Assembly (NCBI RefSeq): GCF_024713945.1
Contig: NC_134678.1
Coordinates: forward strand, 5,332,001 to 5,396,000
Length of the DNA stretch: 64,000 nt
Direction: 5' to 3'
DNA from: Dermatophagoides farinae
Taxonomy: Eukaryota; Arthropoda; Arachnida; Sarcoptiformes; Pyroglyphidae
In this document: positions 12,963 through 34,816 of the stretch, in pieces
How the letters are laid out: each line of letters opens with the position of its first letter
Position numbering within the stretch: position 1 is the first letter of the stretch
Position numbers and translations under genes: made by a program
The notes under the pieces: model-generated
Seen by the model: only the letters and a program-made list of their open reading frames with translations
Databases searched by the model: none
What the model was told of the DNA's origin: nothing

Positions 12963-13012
12963 AAATTGTTAGTCTTTTTCTTTGTGAAACGTGAATGTTT
13001 TTTGTCTTTTTC

Positions 13013-16281: not shown

Positions 16282-16290
16282 TATATAAAA
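16282..16290 (+). promoter_or_regulatory. TATA box of the Pro/Ser-rich repeat protein gene
   Basis: TATATAAAA stands in a locally less AT-rich context (GAGGC before, GCCGATG after) 221 bp upstream of the start codon at 16511. Transcription should start near 16312-16318, leaving a leader of roughly 195 bases. A clear TATA box fits a tissue-specific, highly expressed structural or secreted protein gene. No transcript evidence is available. Confidence 0.6.
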
Positions 16291-16510
16291 AGCCGATGAT
16301 CAAAAGGGAATTGCTTGAATTTTTTCACTCTTTCACAAAAAAATTGAATTTTTTTTCTTGTTAGCTCGCAGTGCGAGCTTGATTTTTTTTTTATTTTCGT
16401 TCATCTCAATCATAAAAGAATCGTTTCGTTTTTCGAACAAGCAGATTGTTTGATCGAGTGATTAGATTCGAGACAGAATTTTCAAAGTTTTTTCATATCA
16501 AAAAATTAAA

Positions 16511-19500
16511 TGATGTTCCAGAAGGTAATGATCAAACGAAAAAAAAAATTTGTTGAAATGTAAAACAATTCTATAGAACTTTAAAAATGGAAATTATTTC
16601 ATTAAACACTTTTTCACTTCTGACAGCTAACCGTGGTTTTTGCCGTTGTGATTATAACCAGATTTGCCACCGCTGATCATTGGAAACGTGATGGCGATGA
16701 ATGGTGGAAATCCTATGAAATTGCGTGAGTGTTTGATAAAAAAATTAATTTTGAAGTAACCATTATTAAAATAGTGAATATAAATAAAACGATTCCATTT
16801 ACAGGCGTAGTGAAAGACAAGCGCAAGAATTTTTTCAAGAAGGTCAAATTGTACAATTGAATCAATTCGAAGATCAAGATGAAGACCATACATTGGCCGA
16901 AGTTGTTGATGATAAAGCACGTCCACAATTTATTTCAATTGCGACAGATCGAATAAGACCAAATCAACCATCACTAACAGCTAGTGTAAGACCAGGGGGG
17001 TTCGGTCAAAGAATTAGTGGTAGTCAAGAAATATCCACATCAACACAATCCAGACCTACTCAAGAATTTTCTGGTTCTATTCGTCCATCAATAGGAAGTC
17101 AAGGGGGTGGCATTCTTCTGGTTGCTGTGAACGAAGATGAACAACCATTACCCGCACCACGACCAATTCAGCCATCTGGTCCATCTTCATTCGGAACATT
17201 GTCAGCACCAGCTCCAAGACCAGCTCAGCCAACTGGTCCATCATTTGGAACATTGCCAAGCCCAAGCTTGCCAGCTCCATTACCGGCACCACGTCCAGCT
17301 CAGCCATCCGGTCCATCATTTGGAACATTGACAGTTCCAGCTCGGCCATCAGGTACATCTTCATTTGGAACATTCCCAGCACCAGCTCCAAGACCAGCTC
17401 AGCCAACTGGTCCATCATTTGGAACATTGCCAAGCCCAAGCTTGCCAGCTCCATTACCAGCACCACGTCCAGCTCAGCCATCCGGTCCATCATTTGGAAC
17501 ATTGACAGTTCCATCTCCAAGACCAGCACAACCTTCCGGTCCATCTTCATTCGGAACATTGACAGTTCCATCTCCAAGACCAGCACAACCTTCCGGTCCA
17601 TCTTCATTCGGAACATTGACAGTTCCAGCTCCAAGACCAGTTCAGCCATCTGGTCCATCTTCATTCGGAAAATTGCCAGCACCAGCACCACGTCCAATTC
17701 AGCCATCCGCTCAATCAATTGGATCTTCAGCCCGTCCTGCGGTAATTCCATCACCACAAAAACCAATTCAACCGTTAACAGGTCCACAAGCTCAATTCAA
17801 TATTGAACAACAAAAAGACATCATTGATGAGGAAGAAAGTCCAATTGTTCCTATTCAACGGACGAAACCATCCTCATTTGGAACTTTGCCCACACCACGT
17901 CCCTCGCTTCCTAAACCAATTCAAACATCCGGTTCATCATTTGGAACATTACAAAGCCCAAGCTTTCCAACTCCATTACCAGCACCACGTCCAGCTCAGC
18001 CATCCGGTCCATCATTTGGAACATTGACAGTTCCAGCTCCAAGGCCAGCACAACCATCCGGTCCATCATTTGGAAAATTGCCAAGCCCAAGCTTGCCAGC
18101 TCCATTACCAGCACCACGTCCAGCTCAGCCCTCCGGTCCATCTTCATTTGGAACATTTCCAGCACCAGCTCCTAGACCCGCTCAGCCATCTGGTCCATCA
18201 TTTGGAACCTTGACAGTTCCAGCTCAGCCATCCGGTCCATCTTCATTTGGAACATTGACAGTTCCATCTCAAAGACCAGCTCAACCATCTGGTCCATCAT
18301 TTGGAACATTGACAGCTCCCGCTCAGCCATCCGGTCCATCTTCATTTGAAACATTGTCAGCACCAGTTCCAATACCAGCTCAGCCATCCGGTCCATCATT
18401 TGGAACATTGACAGTTCCAGCTCCAAGACCAGTTCAGCCATCTGGTCCTTCATTTGGAACATTACCAAGCCCAAGCTTGCCAGCTCCATTACCCGCACCA
18501 CGTCCAGCTCAGCCATCCGGTCCATCTTCATTAGGAACATTTCCAGCACCAGCTCCAAGACCAGTTCAGCCAACTGGTCCATCATTTGGGACATTGCCAA
18601 GCCCAAGCTTGCCAGCTCCATTACCGGCACCACGTCCAGCTCAGCCATCCGGTCCATCATTTGGAACATTGACAGTTCCAGCTCCTAGACCCGCTCAGCC
18701 ATCTGGTCCATCATTTGGAACATTGACAGTTCCATCTCAGCCATCCGGTCCATCATTTGGAACATTGACAGTTCCAGCTCCAAGACCAGTTCAGCCATCT
18801 GGTCCTTCATTTGGAACATTACCAAGCCCAAGCTTGCCAGCTCCATTACCCGCACCACGTCCAGCTCAGCCATCCGGTCCATCTTCATTTGGAACATTGT
18901 CGGCACCAGCTCCAATACCAGCTCAGCCATCTGGTCCTTCATTTGGAACATTACCAAGCCCAAGCTTGCCAGCTCCATTACCAGCGCCACGTCCAGTTCA
19001 GCCATCCGGACCATCTTCATCCGGAACATTAACAGTTCCAGCTCAGCCATCCGGTCCATCATTTGGAAAATCACCATTTACAGGAGGTGTTAAAGGTCAA
19101 AAAACTTCCTCAAGCAGTCTAACACGCCCACGTTTAACATCTCCCTCACCATCCCAACCATCCAGTCCATCATTTGGAACATTGACAGTTCCATCTCCAA
19201 GACCAGCGCAACCTTCCGGTCCATCATTTGGAACATTACCAAGCCCAAGCTTGCCAGCTCCATTACCAGCACCACGTCCAATTCAGCCTTCTGGTCCATC
19301 ATTTGGAACATTGACAGTTCCAGCTCCAAGACCAGCGCAACCTTCCGGTCCATCATTTGGAACATTACCAAGCCCAAGCTTGCCAGCTCCATTACCAGCA
19401 CCACGTCCAATTCAGCCTTCTGGTCCATCATTTGGAACATTGACAGTTCCAGCTCCAAGACCAGCGCAACCTTCCGGTCCATCATTTGGAACATTACCAA

Positions 19501-21077
19501 GCCCAAGCTTGCCAGCTCCATTACCAGCACCACGTCCAATTCAGCCATCTGGTCCATCTTCATTCGGAACATTGTCAGCACCAGCTCCAAGACCCGCTCA
19601 GCCATCTGGTCCATCATTTGGAACATTGACAGTTCCAGCTCCAAGACCAGTTCAGCCATCTGGTCCTTCATTTGGAACATTGACAGTTCCAGCCCAGCCA
19701 TCTGGTCCATCATTTGGAATATTGACAGTTCCAGCTCCTAGACCAGCTCAACCATCCAGTCCATCATTTGGAACATTGACAGTTCCATCTCTAAGGCCAG
19801 CGCAACCATCCGGTCCATCATTTGGAAAATTGCCAAGCCCAAGCTTGCCAGCGCCATTACCAGCACCAAGACCAGCTCAGCCATCTGCTCCTTCATTCGG
19901 AACATTACCCAGCCCAAGCTTGCCAGCTCCATTACCAGCTCCAAGACCAGCTCAGCCATCCGGTCCATCATTTGGAACATTGTCAGCACCAGCTCCAAGA
20001 CCAGCTCAGCCATCCGGTCCATCATTTGGAACATTGACAGTTCCAGCTCCAAGACTAGCTCAGCCATCTGGTCCATCATTTGGAAAATCATCATTTGCAG
20101 GAGGTGTTAAAGGTCAAAAAACTTCCCAAAGCAGTCTATCACCCCCACGTTTTCCATCTCCCACACTGACAGTTCCAGCTCCTAGACCAGTTCAGCCATC
20201 CGGTCCATCATTTGGAACATTGACAGTTCCAGCTCCAAGACCAGTTCAGCCATCCGGTCCATCATTTGGAACATTACCAAGCCCGAGCTTGCCAGCTCCA
20301 TTACCAGCACCACGTCCAGCTCAGCCATCCGGTCCATCATTCGGAACATTGACAGTTCCAGCTCCAAGGCCAGCGCAACCATCCGGTCCATCTTCATTCG
20401 GTACATTGCCAGCACCAGCTCCAATACCAGTTCAACCATCTGGTCAATCTTCATTTGGAACATTGACAGTTCCAGCACAACCTTCCGGTCCATCTTCATT
20501 CGGAACATTGACAGTTCCATCTCCAAGACCAGCTCAACCATCCGGTCCATCTTCATTCGGAACATTGTCAGCACCAGCTCCAAGACCAGTTCAACCATCT
20601 GGTCAATCTTCATTTGGAACATTGACAGTTCCATCTCCAAGACCAGCTCAACCATCCGGTCCATCTTCATTCGGAACATTGTCAGCACCAGCTCCAAAAC
20701 CAGTTCAACCTTCCGGTCCATCTTCGTTCGGAACATTGACAGTTCCAGCTCCAAGGCCAGCACAACCTTCCGGTCCATCTTCGTTCGGAACATTGACAGT
20801 TCCAGCTCCAAGACCAGCTCAGCCACCCGGTCCATCATTCGGAACATTGACAGTTCCAGCTCCAAGACCAGCTCAGCCATCTGGTCCATCTTCGATTGGA
20901 TCTCTAGCAAGTCCTGCTCAACCTTCTTCTCCAACTTCATCATTATCGTCAGGTACATCTTCCGGCGAAGAATATGGTGTGAAAGGTGGTAGTAGTAAAA
21001 CAAAAGGTCGCGGCTTCAATCCTAATTATCCTCGATTCAATCCACGACTAAACCGTGCTATAACTCAAGCTGCTTAA
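16511..21077 (+). CDS. secreted giant Pro/Ser-rich tandem-repeat protein
   Basis: Exons 16511-16525, 16627-16724 and 16805-21077 join in frame into 1461 residues. The first two exons encode a signal peptide (FQKLTVVFAVVIITRFATA) and a charged, Trp-rich start (DHWKRDGDEWWKSYE). A short acidic region (QFEDQDEDHTLAEV) follows. From about residue 150 the chain consists of roughly 58 tandem units, each opening with SGPS(S)FG. There are three main types: 18-19 residues (FGTLTVPAPRPAQP), 25 residues (FGTLPSPSLPAPLPAPRPAQ) and 14 residues (FGTLTVPAQP). Two spacers carry GKSxFxGGVKGQKTS, and a tail ends RGFNPNYPRFNP then RLNRAITQAA. The repeats hold no Cys and almost no charge except Arg, so an extended proline-rich chain, probably O-glycosylated, is expected. 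Cuticle, eggshell, cement or mucus are possible sites. I know no homologue. Many antisense open frames are by-products of the repeats. Confidence 0.85.
17180..20890 (+). repeat. coding minisatellite array of ~58 units (42/54-57/75 bp)
   Basis: The repeat region is made of interspersed 54-57-bp, 75-bp and ~42-bp units sharing the stretch TCCATCATTTGGAACATT. The 75-bp type always carries CCAAGCCCAAGCTTGCCAGC. The array is broken by a unique segment near 17700-17880 and by two related spacers near 19060-19160 and 20090-20165. Unit order is not strictly periodic, which points to repeated unequal exchange or gene conversion. Confidence 0.95.
19170..19556 (+). repeat. three near-identical 129-bp higher-order repeats
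   Basis: The dimer of one 54-bp and one 75-bp unit occurs three times in a row, at 19170-19298, 19299-19427 and 19428-19556. By eye the copies differ by only a few bases. They encode the same 43 residues apart from one Ser/Ala change near the start. This is the youngest-looking part of the array. Confidence 0.9.
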
Positions 21078-21278: not shown

Positions 21279-21322
21279 AATAAAATTTGAAATATTGACT
21301 AGTTTCGTTTCAAAGGAAACGA
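21279..21322 (+). terminator. poly-A signal and downstream hairpin of the repeat-protein gene
   Basis: AATAAA at 21279-21284 lies 200 bp after the stop codon. It is followed by a 7-bp inverted repeat, TCGTTTC (21305-21311) and GAAACGA (21316-21322), with a 4-base loop and then a T-rich run. The poly-A signal is a fair prediction. A role of the hairpin in 3'-end formation between these convergent genes is inference. Confidence 0.4.
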
Positions 21323-21371: not shown

Positions 21372-22016
21372 CTACTTATCACCTATCTGCTTTCGATTAA
21401 TCAATGAACGTGATTGAATACTAATATCTGATTTAAACGATGCTGGAGAACTTGGATTTGAAGTTGTCGATTTGGTTCTCAGACTATTTTTTGAATTTGT
21501 GGTCAATTTTGCGTTATATTCATCATTTCTATACGACTTTATTCCACCACTCGATTCAATAATACGTCTCTTTATCGTTTCCGATAAAATTTTTTTACAC
21601 ATACTTTTGGAAAATTGTTGTTTTATAGCAGATTCTGATTTTCTGTGTTTAGTTTGAGCTCGATGATTTTGTTTCAAAGTATTGAATCCAATCTTTGATA
21701 CAACACGACGAAATACATTTTCCTCTTCAAGTATTTGTACCATTTTTTTCTTATCTATTCGTATGGTTGGTATCAAAGGTTTTGAATGAGGTAACCGTGG
21801 ACACGATGTCAATTGTATTGATGGTTGTTGAATGATTTTTGTTTTTGAAATCGATAAACTTTTACTTGTCGATCGCGACGACGATGATGATGATGACCCT
21901 TGACGACTATTGTAAATGCTAGATGACAATTCTGAAAATTTTTCCATAGTTTTAGCATTCCTTTTTTGATCATCTTCGATTCCAATAAATGACTTTCGTG
22001 AACAAATCGAACCCAT
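21372..22016 (-). CDS. small basic protein with N-myristoylation/palmitoylation motif
   Basis: One exon of 214 codons from the ATG at 22014-22016 to the stop at 21372. The N-terminus MGSICSRKS fits N-myristoylation (Gly2, Ser6, then basic residues), with Cys5 well placed for palmitoylation. That would anchor the protein to the inner face of a membrane. The rest is basic and rich in Ser and Lys, with a Ser run near residue 40. A helix-like middle (RIDKKKMVQILEEENVFRRV) and a Lys/Arg-rich segment (KSMCKKILSETIKRRIIESS) follow. No catalytic domain is visible and I do not recognise a family. It converges with the repeat-protein gene across 294 bp. The protein composition is not low-complexity throughout, which supports a real gene. 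Confidence 0.65.
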   Translation of the reverse strand: MGSICSRKSFIGIEDDQKRNAKTMEKFSELSSSIYNSRQGSSSSSSSRSTSKSLSISKTKIIQQPSIQLTSCPRLPHSKPLIPTIRIDKKKMVQILEEENVFRRVVSKIGFNTLKQNHRAQTKHRKSESAIKQQFSKSMCKKILSETIKRRIIESSGGIKSYRNDEYNAKLTTNSKNSLRTKSTTSNPSSPASFKSDISIQSRSLINRKQIGDK

Positions 22017-32118: not shown

Positions 32119-33483
32119 TTATCCGCTGGACATTGATCTCATATTTCTTTTGCTAGGTGATGAAGAACTTTTTCGTCCTAATGATGATGCTTTTGATTTG
32201 GCAATCAGCGATTGTCGCTTTTCTGACGATATGCTACTTTTCGATGTCAATGTTCGGCCAGTTGATGCACCAAATTTTGATTTCTGCGTCATTGTTGTTG
32301 GCGTTTCCATCGATGAATCACTAGATAATTGACTGCTCAATGGTGCATCAGTACTATCTTGAATTGTTGAAGTAGTTTGTTGCTGCTTTTTAAGTTTTTG
32401 TTTTGGATATAACCAAAACGATCCATAAATTACAACGCCTATTACAACCAAAATCGTGATAGCTGATAATATGCCCAAAATCATTAATATAGAACTTTTT
32501 CCTTCACTTTGCCCTTCTGGTATTATGGCAATATTCGGTTTCGTTATTCTTTTCTGATCACTATCAATCTGCGGCGGTGTCGTAACGTATTCTTCGGCTT
32601 GATCTGGAACTTGTCCACAAATGAAAAGTTGAGCTGATGGTTTTGTTGCGAATTGTTTCTCCAGATTTCTGTTGAAAAATACCGATATATCAAAGAAGTA
32701 TGCATTTGAATTATTCGATGAAATCAGAAACACGTAGTTATCCACTATGAATCCAAAACGAATACTAGAAAACATTTCAAATGTTGAGCCACAATCTTCA
32801 TTATCATCGGAATGTTGTAGACGGATACGTGTATTGTAACTCTTTACATGGAAACACAATTGTCCCAAAGGTTTTTCTTTCAGAAGAAATGACGTATATA
32901 CCAACGTTTTCTTATTTTGCATTGCTAACATTAAATAATTCAGATGACTTTGGCCTGCAGAGGTATCGCTTTGAGTATCAGTACTCCAAATTGGAACGAT
33001 ATTAGCATTTTCGGACAAATCTTCTGTCAAGGAACTAAAATCAAAAACTCTTTCTTCATTTATATCTTGAAGCATTACACGATGCTTCAATTTATCCACC
33101 ATATGGACAACAATAAATGGTCTGTTATAATCACTTTTTTGCGCAGCTAGATGAATATTTTGCAATGACGGGTCATTTGAAACACTTGTCTGAAAAGTTC
33201 CATCTTTCCAAAGATTTGGCAATCGAACTTCTGCTGTTGTAGCATTACCATTCACCAAATAGATTCGCTGATCTTTACCAAACAAATATTTCATCCGATA
33301 ATATGGATAAATGGCAAACGAATGTTTATTTGTATATTGCCAAATATGATTCTCAAATATGCCCATCGATAAAGTTTCATCCAACGAATATCCAGATTGT
33401 GAACAATCAACCGATTCCACCGTTCGAATATTAAGAGCAGTAAAGGCGACAACAAAAAAGACTGCGATGATCAACATTTTCAT
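32119..33483 (-). CDS. type I membrane protein, tandem paralogue A (unknown family)
   Basis: One exon of 454 codons begins at the ATG at 33481-33483 (MKMLIIAVFFVVAFTA, a signal peptide ending before VDCSQSG). The ~330-residue outer part carries four cysteines also present in the neighbour: VDCS, QLCFHV, EDCGST and FICGQ. Shared blocks include SMGIFENHIWQYTN, SFAIYP and IRLQHSDDN. A KRITKP motif precedes a membrane segment at about residues 340-362 (ILMILGILSAITILVVIGVV). The inner tail is ~90 residues, rich in Ser, Thr and Lys (SSSSPSKRNMRSMSSG at the end), suggesting phosphorylation. I do not recognise the family; a mite-specific receptor or adhesion-like protein is possible. It clearly arose by duplication with the gene at 33.6-34.7 kb. 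Confidence 0.85.
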   Translation of the reverse strand: MKMLIIAVFFVVAFTALNIRTVESVDCSQSGYSLDETLSMGIFENHIWQYTNKHSFAIYPYYRMKYLFGKDQRIYLVNGNATTAEVRLPNLWKDGTFQTSVSNDPSLQNIHLAAQKSDYNRPFIVVHMVDKLKHRVMLQDINEERVFDFSSLTEDLSENANIVPIWSTDTQSDTSAGQSHLNYLMLAMQNKKTLVYTSFLLKEKPLGQLCFHVKSYNTRIRLQHSDDNEDCGSTFEMFSSIRFGFIVDNYVFLISSNNSNAYFFDISVFFNRNLEKQFATKPSAQLFICGQVPDQAEEYVTTPPQIDSDQKRITKPNIAIIPEGQSEGKSSILMILGILSAITILVVIGVVIYGSFWLYPKQKLKKQQQTTSTIQDSTDAPLSSQLSSDSSMETPTTMTQKSKFGASTGRTLTSKSSISSEKRQSLIAKSKASSLGRKSSSSPSKRNMRSMSSG

Positions 33484-33602
33484 TTCGAACAAACAAAAAT
33501 AAAATTCAATAAATGAAAATGTCGATGTAAAAGTGAATAAATGTTAAAATCATAGTATTTTTTAAAAAAAAATCATTTAATTACTAAAAAAAAAATTCTC
33601 AA

Positions 33603-34733
33603 TTAGTTTGTTATTAAATTATGCTTTTTCGATATGCTGTTTGTTTGTTGTTTTTTCTGTATAGATCCTTCACTAAAAGATGATGTTATACTTTTTAATT
33701 TTTGAAGTGATTTCTTTCGCCGATTTCCATATACAATAGTTATAATTGTACCAAAAACAGTCAAAACAAATATACTGATAATGAAAAGAATTTTATAATC
33801 GAAATTAATAAGCCAACTTTGTTCTTCAATTATTGGTCTTGTAATTCGTTTTTTAGATGCCATTACATTATTATTATCTTGATTTTGAAATTCATCAGAT
33901 TCTGTACAAGTAAAAATGTCTTTAAAATTTTTTATCAAAAAATCTGTCACTATGTTTGGTGCATAAAACAATGATTGATCGAAATGATATAAATTTTGTG
34001 TCAAAATCGATCCTAAATATACATATCCATAGGCCATATATGCAAAATCGATAGTAGACATTATTGATGCTGTTGAATGACATGTAACGTTTCCATCGAT
34101 TGATTGTAGACGGATTTTCGATCGATAAGAATCTTCAACAAAACAAAGCATTCCATATGGTTTTCTATTTAAATATAACGAATCAAATACAAATGTTTGA
34201 TTTTTCTTTTCATCAATAGTTATGATCAAAAAATTTATCTGATTTATAATAATGCTTGCATCATTATCAGCAGTCCAGATTGATATTATCTTGTCATGTT
34301 TATATTCATTTGTCAATTCTTCAGCGATAAAGTAATAATTATTTCCTGTGCTCGATTGAATTACAATTTCATGAGTTGATTTAAATATTACGTGAAATAT
34401 ATACAATGCTTCCATTAATGATTGTTGAACACAAAAACTTATTCGATTTTCTTCTCCTCCTTTTTCTAAGATTACTTTAAAATCTTTATCATACATGAGC
34501 ACTGGATATAGTTGAGCAAATTTCGTTACTTTTCCATTGGCCAAATGAAAAAAATCATCTGTATTTCGAATTGGATAAATGGCAAAAGAATCGCTAAAGG
34601 TGTATTGCATAATCTGACCATCGAAGATACCCAACGAAAATGTATCATTTAACGTCAAACCTGGTTTAGAACAGTCAACCGTGAATACGGATGGAATGGT
34701 TCGAAATAAAACGATCAATATTATTGTAAACAT
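33603..34733 (-). CDS. type I membrane protein, tandem paralogue B (unknown family)
   Basis: One exon of 376 codons starts at the ATG 34731-34733 with a signal peptide (FTIILIVLFRTIPSVFT) and VDCSKPG as the likely mature start. It aligns along its length with the neighbour 120 bp downstream. Shared blocks are LGIFDGQIMQYTF, SFAIYPI, KPYGMLCF, KIRLQSIDGN and KKRITRP. The four shared cysteines are kept, with one extra (ISFCVQQ). A membrane segment follows (KILFIISIFVLTVFGTIITI), then a short basic tail rich in Ser and Lys, about half the length of paralogue A's. Sequence identity is low, so the duplication is old. Both genes lack introns, unlike most neighbours, which may point to an origin by retroposition followed by tandem duplication. 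Confidence 0.82.
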   Translation of the reverse strand: MFTIILIVLFRTIPSVFTVDCSKPGLTLNDTFSLGIFDGQIMQYTFSDSFAIYPIRNTDDFFHLANGKVTKFAQLYPVLMYDKDFKVILEKGGEENRISFCVQQSLMEALYIFHVIFKSTHEIVIQSSTGNNYYFIAEELTNEYKHDKIISIWTADNDASIIINQINFLIITIDEKKNQTFVFDSLYLNRKPYGMLCFVEDSYRSKIRLQSIDGNVTCHSTASIMSTIDFAYMAYGYVYLGSILTQNLYHFDQSLFYAPNIVTDFLIKNFKDIFTCTESDEFQNQDNNNVMASKKRITRPIIEEQSWLINFDYKILFIISIFVLTVFGTIITIVYGNRRKKSLQKLKSITSSFSEGSIQKKQQTNSISKKHNLITN

Positions 34734-34816
34734 CGAGACTTTTTTTTGTTAATCATATTTGAATTAATTTTGAATTTAAATATAAAAGTAATTTTATAAT
34801 TTAATCAATGAATGAA

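Follow-up and report, generated by a model that had tools for sequence, protein, structure and literature searches.

We analyzed a 64,000-nucleotide stretch of the genome of the mite Dermatophagoides farinae (contig NC_134678.1, positions 5,332,001 to 5,396,000 of the forward strand; hereafter, the window). It contains a gene for a very long, repetitive protein that is probably secreted. As modeled from the sequence alone, the gene has three exons on the + strand and runs from an ATG at 16510 to a stop codon at 21077. It encodes 1461 residues, and the only stop is at the end. A first-pass annotation had placed the gene at 16511..21077; its end agrees with our model, but the ATG begins one base earlier. 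The parts of the gene are:

16510..16524, + strand: exon 1 of the gene model, encoding MMFQK, the first part of the signal peptide
16525..16626, + strand: intron 1 (GT..AG; GTAATG...ACAG), phase 0, within the signal peptide
16627..16724, + strand: exon 2 of the gene model, encoding the remaining signal peptide (to 16674) and then the start of the Trp-containing head
16725..16804, + strand: intron 2 (GT..AG; GTGAGT...ACAG), phase 2
16805..17174, + strand: the portion of exon 3 that holds the rest of the head (isoelectric point, or pI, of 4.8 for residues 22-140)
17175..20879, + strand: repeat array, with 52 canonical units of 14-25 residues, longer pieces, and islands
17787..17867, + strand: acidic island (QAQFNIEQQKDIIDEEESPIVPIQRTK) inside the array
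19065..19160, + strand: basic island 1, which contains GGVKGQKTS
20082..20165, + strand: basic island 2, which contains GGVKGQKTS
20880..21077, + strand: tail with GVKGGSSKTKGRG, the basic C-terminus, and the stop codon

(In the gene model, exon 3 spans 16805-21077.) The putative signal peptide is MMFQKLTVVFAVVIITRFATA, with the cleavage site placed by eye. The mature chain would have 1440 residues, of which 5.4% are aromatic and 4.7% are Arg, and a net charge of +56. Its three Trp (W24, W31, and W32) all lie in the acidic head, and the last 40 residues of the tail have a pI of 10.5. The whole protein contains 24.8% Pro, 23.3% Ser+Thr, and 9.7% Gly, but no Cys and no N-glycosylation sequon. 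The annotation had described a signal peptide, Trp in a charged head, an absence of Cys, and a basic tail, and we find all of these (the signal peptide by eye).

Cutting the chain at the unit starts gives 58 pieces, 52 of which are canonical units of 14, 15, 18, 19, or 25 residues. SFG occurs 55 times, SGPSFG 29 times, and SGPSSFG 14 times, so the earlier count of about 58 SGPSFG-type units was close. Nearly every canonical unit has a Phe (51 of 52) and most have an Arg (42 of 52), but only one has an acidic residue. Within the array, the median spacing is 18 residues for Phe and 19 residues for Arg. Tyr is found three times in the chain (at 35, 1428, and 1446), never within a canonical unit, and His is found twice.

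Both basic islands (19065-19160 and 20082-20165) and the tail (20976-21074) have a GVKG core in common; it looks as though the array had grown through the duplication of blocks with a tail-like module at their end. A higher-order repeat of 129 nucleotides (nt) is present in 3.6 copies at 95% (19165-19627). By simple comparison, distant units are about as alike as neighboring units are. For 303 residues of exon 3, AlphaFold run without an alignment gave a mean predicted local distance difference test score (pLDDT) of 45.1, a predicted template modeling score (pTM) of 0.14, and one helix of 9 residues. This is compatible with disorder, although such output is weak evidence for a single sequence.

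Coding status and searches for relatives

A tandem repeat could stay open by chance and encode no functional protein. If the unit happens to be free of stops, then a long open frame comes for free, and other frames of the array do hold stop-free stretches of up to 238 codons. But from 17160 to 20900, only one of the six frames is free of stops (1247 codons); the other five hold 11, 11, 37, 55, and 104. We also computed the ratio of nonsynonymous to synonymous differences (pN/pS) within each of the four main classes of units, which have 4, 16, 17, and 13 members (50 units in total, with the two 15-residue units excluded). In frame, the ratios are 0.21, 0.24, 0.44, and 0.20, versus 0.96-8.95 in the two other forward frames. 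In other words, the unit copies vary mainly at silent sites, which speaks against a repeat that is open by chance. One antisense frame has low ratios too (0.27-0.35 in three of the four classes), probably because silent sites coincide; no antisense frame is open. Furthermore, the non-repeat head, the islands, and the tail are open in the same frame as the array, and the gene model includes a signal peptide and GT-AG introns. We consider a chance-open repeat to be very improbable.

We searched for relatives in the mite's own genome (62.4 Mb in 22 contigs), and only the best candidates were scored. The head gave 2 matches, the signal peptide with the head 2, the array 21, and the tail 1. All of these are within this gene, so no second copy was found in the genome with the head, the array, or the tail as the query. 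Against Pfam, exon 3 matched no family at E <= 1. The 221-residue N-terminal piece gave a single sub-threshold row (E = 0.058) at residues 139-206, which are mostly in the repeats, and the tail and the acidic island had no match. The best hit of the head in PDB was not significant (E = 1.9). The annotation's proposal of a secreted structural protein of no known family has held up within these searches of Pfam, PDB, and the mite's genome.

The pattern DEWWK..YE from the head occurs at 8 places in the genome with at most 2 mismatches, including this gene. Read by eye, the other seven have no likeness to the head beyond the motif. (One of them, L034, has a hydrophobic stretch about 25 residues before the motif; the 80 residues inspected at this place contain no Met.) Head pattern matches in viral contigs (6) and in bacterial or archaeal contigs (128) were set aside, as tblastn identified no relative among them; these collections are unsuited to a mite gene. 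A group-2 allergen relative in the mite's genome aligns well with Der p 2 and Der f 2, though it clearly differs from both, in keeping with an astigmatid mite. In the open literature, as far as its text was covered, the only match to the repeat-unit strings was unrelated (an oomycete glucanase).

First exons of cuticle genes

Intron 1 is in phase 0 and cuts the signal peptide after codon 5, right after MMFQK. In a study of Drosophila, a signal peptide and a phase-0 intron at position 5 occur together in 88 genes, of which 38 are annotated as cuticle, 46 as unknown, and 4 as other (PMC1626468). In 80 of the 88, there is no other intron (PMC1626468). In Drosophila, an intron of this kind is chiefly characteristic of cuticle genes (PMC1626468). 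Similarly, in Anopheles, 86% of the intron-bearing genes of the R&R family of cuticle proteins have a split signal peptide, and the most common length of the first exon is 12 nt (PMC2259329).

We then examined the R&R genes of D. farinae. The PF00379 profile has 24 matches in the genome, and we looked at all 24 loci. At 11 of them, the exon with the signal peptide begins at a splice acceptor; at 5, the Met and the signal peptide share an exon; and 8 could not be sorted (including L070, whose exon start has no AG acceptor). To find the first exons, we used a simple rule: an ATG, 1-4 further codons of which the last is AAR, then GTR, and an intron of 50-330 nt. The rule finds a tiny, Lys-ending first exon at 7 of the 11 split R&R loci and in the gene in the window. 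Those at the R&R loci are MFK, MMLK, MFK, MKFK, MQK, and MIMFK, plus a doubtful pick at L053, where the rule takes an ATG other than the likeliest one. It misses L051, L055, L062, and L067. Among 2000 random acceptors in the window, 1.35% fit the rule; against this background, the binomial probability of 7 in 11 is 3e-11.

As controls, we chose 20 loci from three other families of secreted proteins (7 Inhibitor_I29, 7 ML, and 6 of the 85 trypsin matches). The signal peptide was readable at 7 of them (L026, L027, L029, L042, L045, L046, and L076) and was split at none; the other 13 could not be sorted. For split versus same-exon signal peptides, the R&R genes (11:5) differ from six controls (0:6, with L045 not counted; Fisher p = 0.012). 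If L070 is counted as split, the comparison is 12:5 versus 0:6 (p = 0.0046). CBM_14 has 73 matches in the genome; these genes lie outside the comparison. Overall, we regard the first-exon anatomy as genuine, though moderate, evidence for a cuticle gene.

Three R&R loci (L054, L056, and L058) have a similar start (MKF..., ...VNTG...) and, in contrast to the split loci, carry the Met and the signal peptide on a single exon. This hints at two gene architectures within the R&R family.

Upstream and neighboring DNA

Two more features flank the coding region:

16282..16289, + strand: TATA-like box TATATAAA, which lies 228 nt upstream of the ATG (weak, as the motif is common in the window)
21279..21284, + strand: AATAAA, the sole copy between the stop codon and a convergent open reading frame (ORF); by its sequence, a candidate poly(A) signal

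The annotation took a strong TATA box as a sign of high, tissue-restricted expression. The motif is present, but any 400 nt of the window would be expected to hold 0.67 copies of TATAWAW, so TATATAAA is weak evidence, and nothing about expression follows from it. TATAWAW is also present within 400 nt upstream at each of the 7 R&R loci whose first exon could be assigned; the joint chance is 0.7%, which is suggestive only. At the R&R locus L060, CTATATAAA lies 230 nt before the first-exon ATG, so both the motif and the distance are nearly as at the gene in the window. In the likely 5' leader (16363-16379), there is also a G+C-rich palindrome with one central base, AGCTCGCAGTGCGAGCT. We dropped it as a shared motif, as it matches only here in the mite's genome with up to 2 mismatches.

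The gene was described as isolated. This fits the upstream side, on which the nearest listed ORF of at least 150 codons ends at 12968. It does not fit the downstream side, as the 3' end of a convergent ORF of 214 codons lies 295 bp past the stop. This ORF (21372-22016, - strand) is a candidate single-ORF gene with no Pfam match at E <= 1. Its product begins with MGSICSRKS, which we take to be a possible start for N-myristoylation. Farther away, two neighboring ORFs at 32119-33543 and 33603-34748 (both on the - strand) have similar starts that follow a signal-like stretch (VDCSQSGYSLDETLSMGIF; VDCSKPGLTLNDTFSLGIF), as well as a later hydrophobic stretch, as if they were tandem duplicates of a membrane protein; neither has a Pfam match above the cut-off.

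Possible roles of the protein

We compared the protein with known classes of structural proteins. With the R&R proteins (CPR), it shares the tiny Lys-ending first exon and the signal-peptide intron that are seen at 7 of 11 split loci in the mite's genome. (This arrangement is common in R&R genes but does not define them.) The defining domain, Chitin_bind_4 (PF00379), is not found in exon 3 by Pfam at E <= 1. CPAP proteins and peritrophins are defined by CBM_14 (PF01607), a domain that needs Cys; our protein has no Pfam match and no Cys. Resilin-type elastic proteins have Tyr-bearing repeats for dityrosine cross-links, while the canonical units here have no Tyr at all. CPLCP proteins are defined by a high density of PV and PY (PMC12105342), but the 1461 residues here have 12 PV and no PY. 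Another group is the DFP2-like proteins, which are secreted mite proteins without a known domain and are in part linked to the cuticle. There are 81 of these genes in Psoroptes ovis (PMC6806590) and 32 in D. pteronyssinus (PMC12105342), and the single copy of our gene argues against a place in such a multigene family.

A broader class is the hypothetical cuticle proteins (CPH), of which 70 were selected in D. pteronyssinus and whose traits include being free of Cys, rich in Pro/Ala/Gly, and built of tandem repeats (PMC12105342). Our protein has these traits, lacks any domain annotation, and has a signal peptide (by eye, rather than by SignalP or DeepLoc). By sequence, it is what that study asks of a CPH, namely no annotation, a signal peptide, and at least one cuticle-like trait; the definition also requires high transcription (the first decile). 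It is unusually long, as over 70% of the CPH are shorter than 300 amino acids (PMC12105342). In the pharyngeal cuticle of C. elegans, 48% of the products secreted at the molt are predicted to be disordered, and phase separation in vitro is documented for one exemplar (PMC9629831). Those proteins are also secreted, of low complexity, disordered, and predicted to phase-separate, and they are built into a chitin-based cuticle, but they are from another phylum and have other sequences.

The tick cement protein GRP77 suggests how the array might work. Its regularly placed Arg and aromatic residues drive condensation, and it ages into an adhesive gel (PMC11794139). By composition and layout, our protein resembles GRP77 in its signal peptide, its likely disorder, its acidic N-terminal part, and its basic part with regularly spaced Arg and Phe. 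But GRP77 has 77 residues and about 26% Gly, versus 1440 residues and 9.7% Gly here, and our protein has fewer aromatics (PMC11794139).

On balance, we lean towards a secreted structural protein that is domain-free and polycationic and belongs to a cuticle-type matrix in this astigmatid mite. A structural coat protein is most likely because the first exon resembles those of the mite's own cuticle genes. The annotation had proposed the cuticle, the eggshell, cement, or the gut lining; the first-exon anatomy and the Drosophila pattern favor the cuticle, with roles as a glue or a mucin as rivals. If so, the signal peptide would export the chain from the cell. The mature chain would probably be disordered and strongly cationic, apart from its acidic head, and each unit of 14-25 residues would almost always offer one Phe, and in most cases one Arg, amid spacers of Pro, Ser, Ala, and Thr. 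Contacts between Arg and Phe, or between Phe and Phe, could act as stickers and lead to condensation. The acidic head, or other acidic parts of the matrix, may attract the basic array and aid this, and the condensed chains might form a dense, flexible layer. With three Tyr and two His in the whole chain, hardening via dityrosine or histidine looks unlikely. The units contain Gln and the islands contain Lys, so enzymatic cross-linking between them could follow. (We infer the use of the splice sites, the tissue, the condensation, and the cross-linking.)

Several points weigh against a cuticle protein. The first-exon rule was devised after the candidates had been seen, and the loci were sorted by eye. 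Our gene has two introns, unlike the 80 Drosophila genes with just the one at position 5. Also, "position 5" means after codon 4, so the fit is exact only if translation begins at the second Met. Five Drosophila glue genes split the signal peptide as well, though in phase 1 (PMC10835880). By Pfam, the protein has no R&R or CBM_14 domain, and it has no PY pairs and no AAP motifs. Finally, aromatics make up 5.4% of the chain, versus 9-20% in tick GRPs.

A bolder proposal is that this is a single-copy extracellular polymer with a new type of repeat, with one Phe and mostly one Arg per Pro/Ser unit of about 18 residues, through which it assembles, and with the spaced GVKG basic islands as nodes for cross-links. 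It would coacervate through Arg and Phe, would be about 19 times longer than tick GRP77, and would be the founding member of a class of mite cuticle polymers without domains. We offer this only tentatively, as it is considerably less likely than the general claim.

The protein could instead be made in a gland and condense in a similar way outside the cuticle, as a glue, cement, silk, eggshell, or spermatophore protein. This is possible, but we doubt it. Tick cement GRP likewise pairs an acidic N-terminus with a basic Arg/Phe part, and it turns into an adhesive gel as it ages (PMC11794139). In Drosophila, Sgs1, Sgs3, and Eig71Ee are long proteins with Pro/Ser/Thr repeats whose signal peptide is split (PMC10835880), and Drosophila mucins and Sgs glue proteins share the long Pro/Ser/Thr tandem repeats and the signal peptide (PMC2515642, PMC10835880). 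Also, some hypothetical cuticle proteins of D. pteronyssinus are enriched in females, which was taken to suggest the chorion or genital cuticle (PMC12105342). However, the intron in Sgs1, Sgs3, Sgs7, and Sgs8 is in phase 1 at codon 10, not in phase 0 after codon 5, and those proteins end with an IRXC[L/V]C motif (PMC10835880), for which our protein has no Cys. The first exon instead matches those of R&R genes from the mite's own genome.

A mucin-like, O-glycosylated protein that lubricates or lines the gut seems unlikely to us, and less likely than a gland product. The annotation's term "mucin-like" is borderline. The protein passes a looser threshold (at least 20% Ser+Thr and 5% Pro, with repeats; cited in PMC2515642), and it has many repeats, with an array that makes up far more than one third of its length. 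It also has more than 3 repeats of ten residues, as PTSP-Miner asks, but its 23.3% Ser+Thr is below the cut-off of 25% for fly mucins (PMC2515642), and the maximum for any 100 residues is 33%. Furthermore, Pfam identified no chitin-binding peritrophin domain, and a bottlebrush needs neither a Phe in 51 of 52 units nor a net charge of +56.

Most likely, what is unfamiliar here is the sequence, and the biology is of a kind already known. The known cuticle proteins of chelicerates belong to a few families (those of the R&R type and of the chitin-binding peritrophin type), and more are anticipated (PMC12105342). Secreted proteins with repeats but no domains and no Cys are an expected class in mites, and neither the gene nor its ortholog is presented here as undescribed. 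If it is ordinary, then it is one more lineage-specific, repetitive coat protein. If it is a cuticle protein, then it would add a very large, domain-free polymer to the chelicerate set, and a tiny first exon that ends in Lys, followed by a phase-0 intron within the signal peptide, would be a sequence-only pointer to further such genes in mites. Either way, the regular Phe/Arg unit is short enough to be synthesized and tested for condensation.

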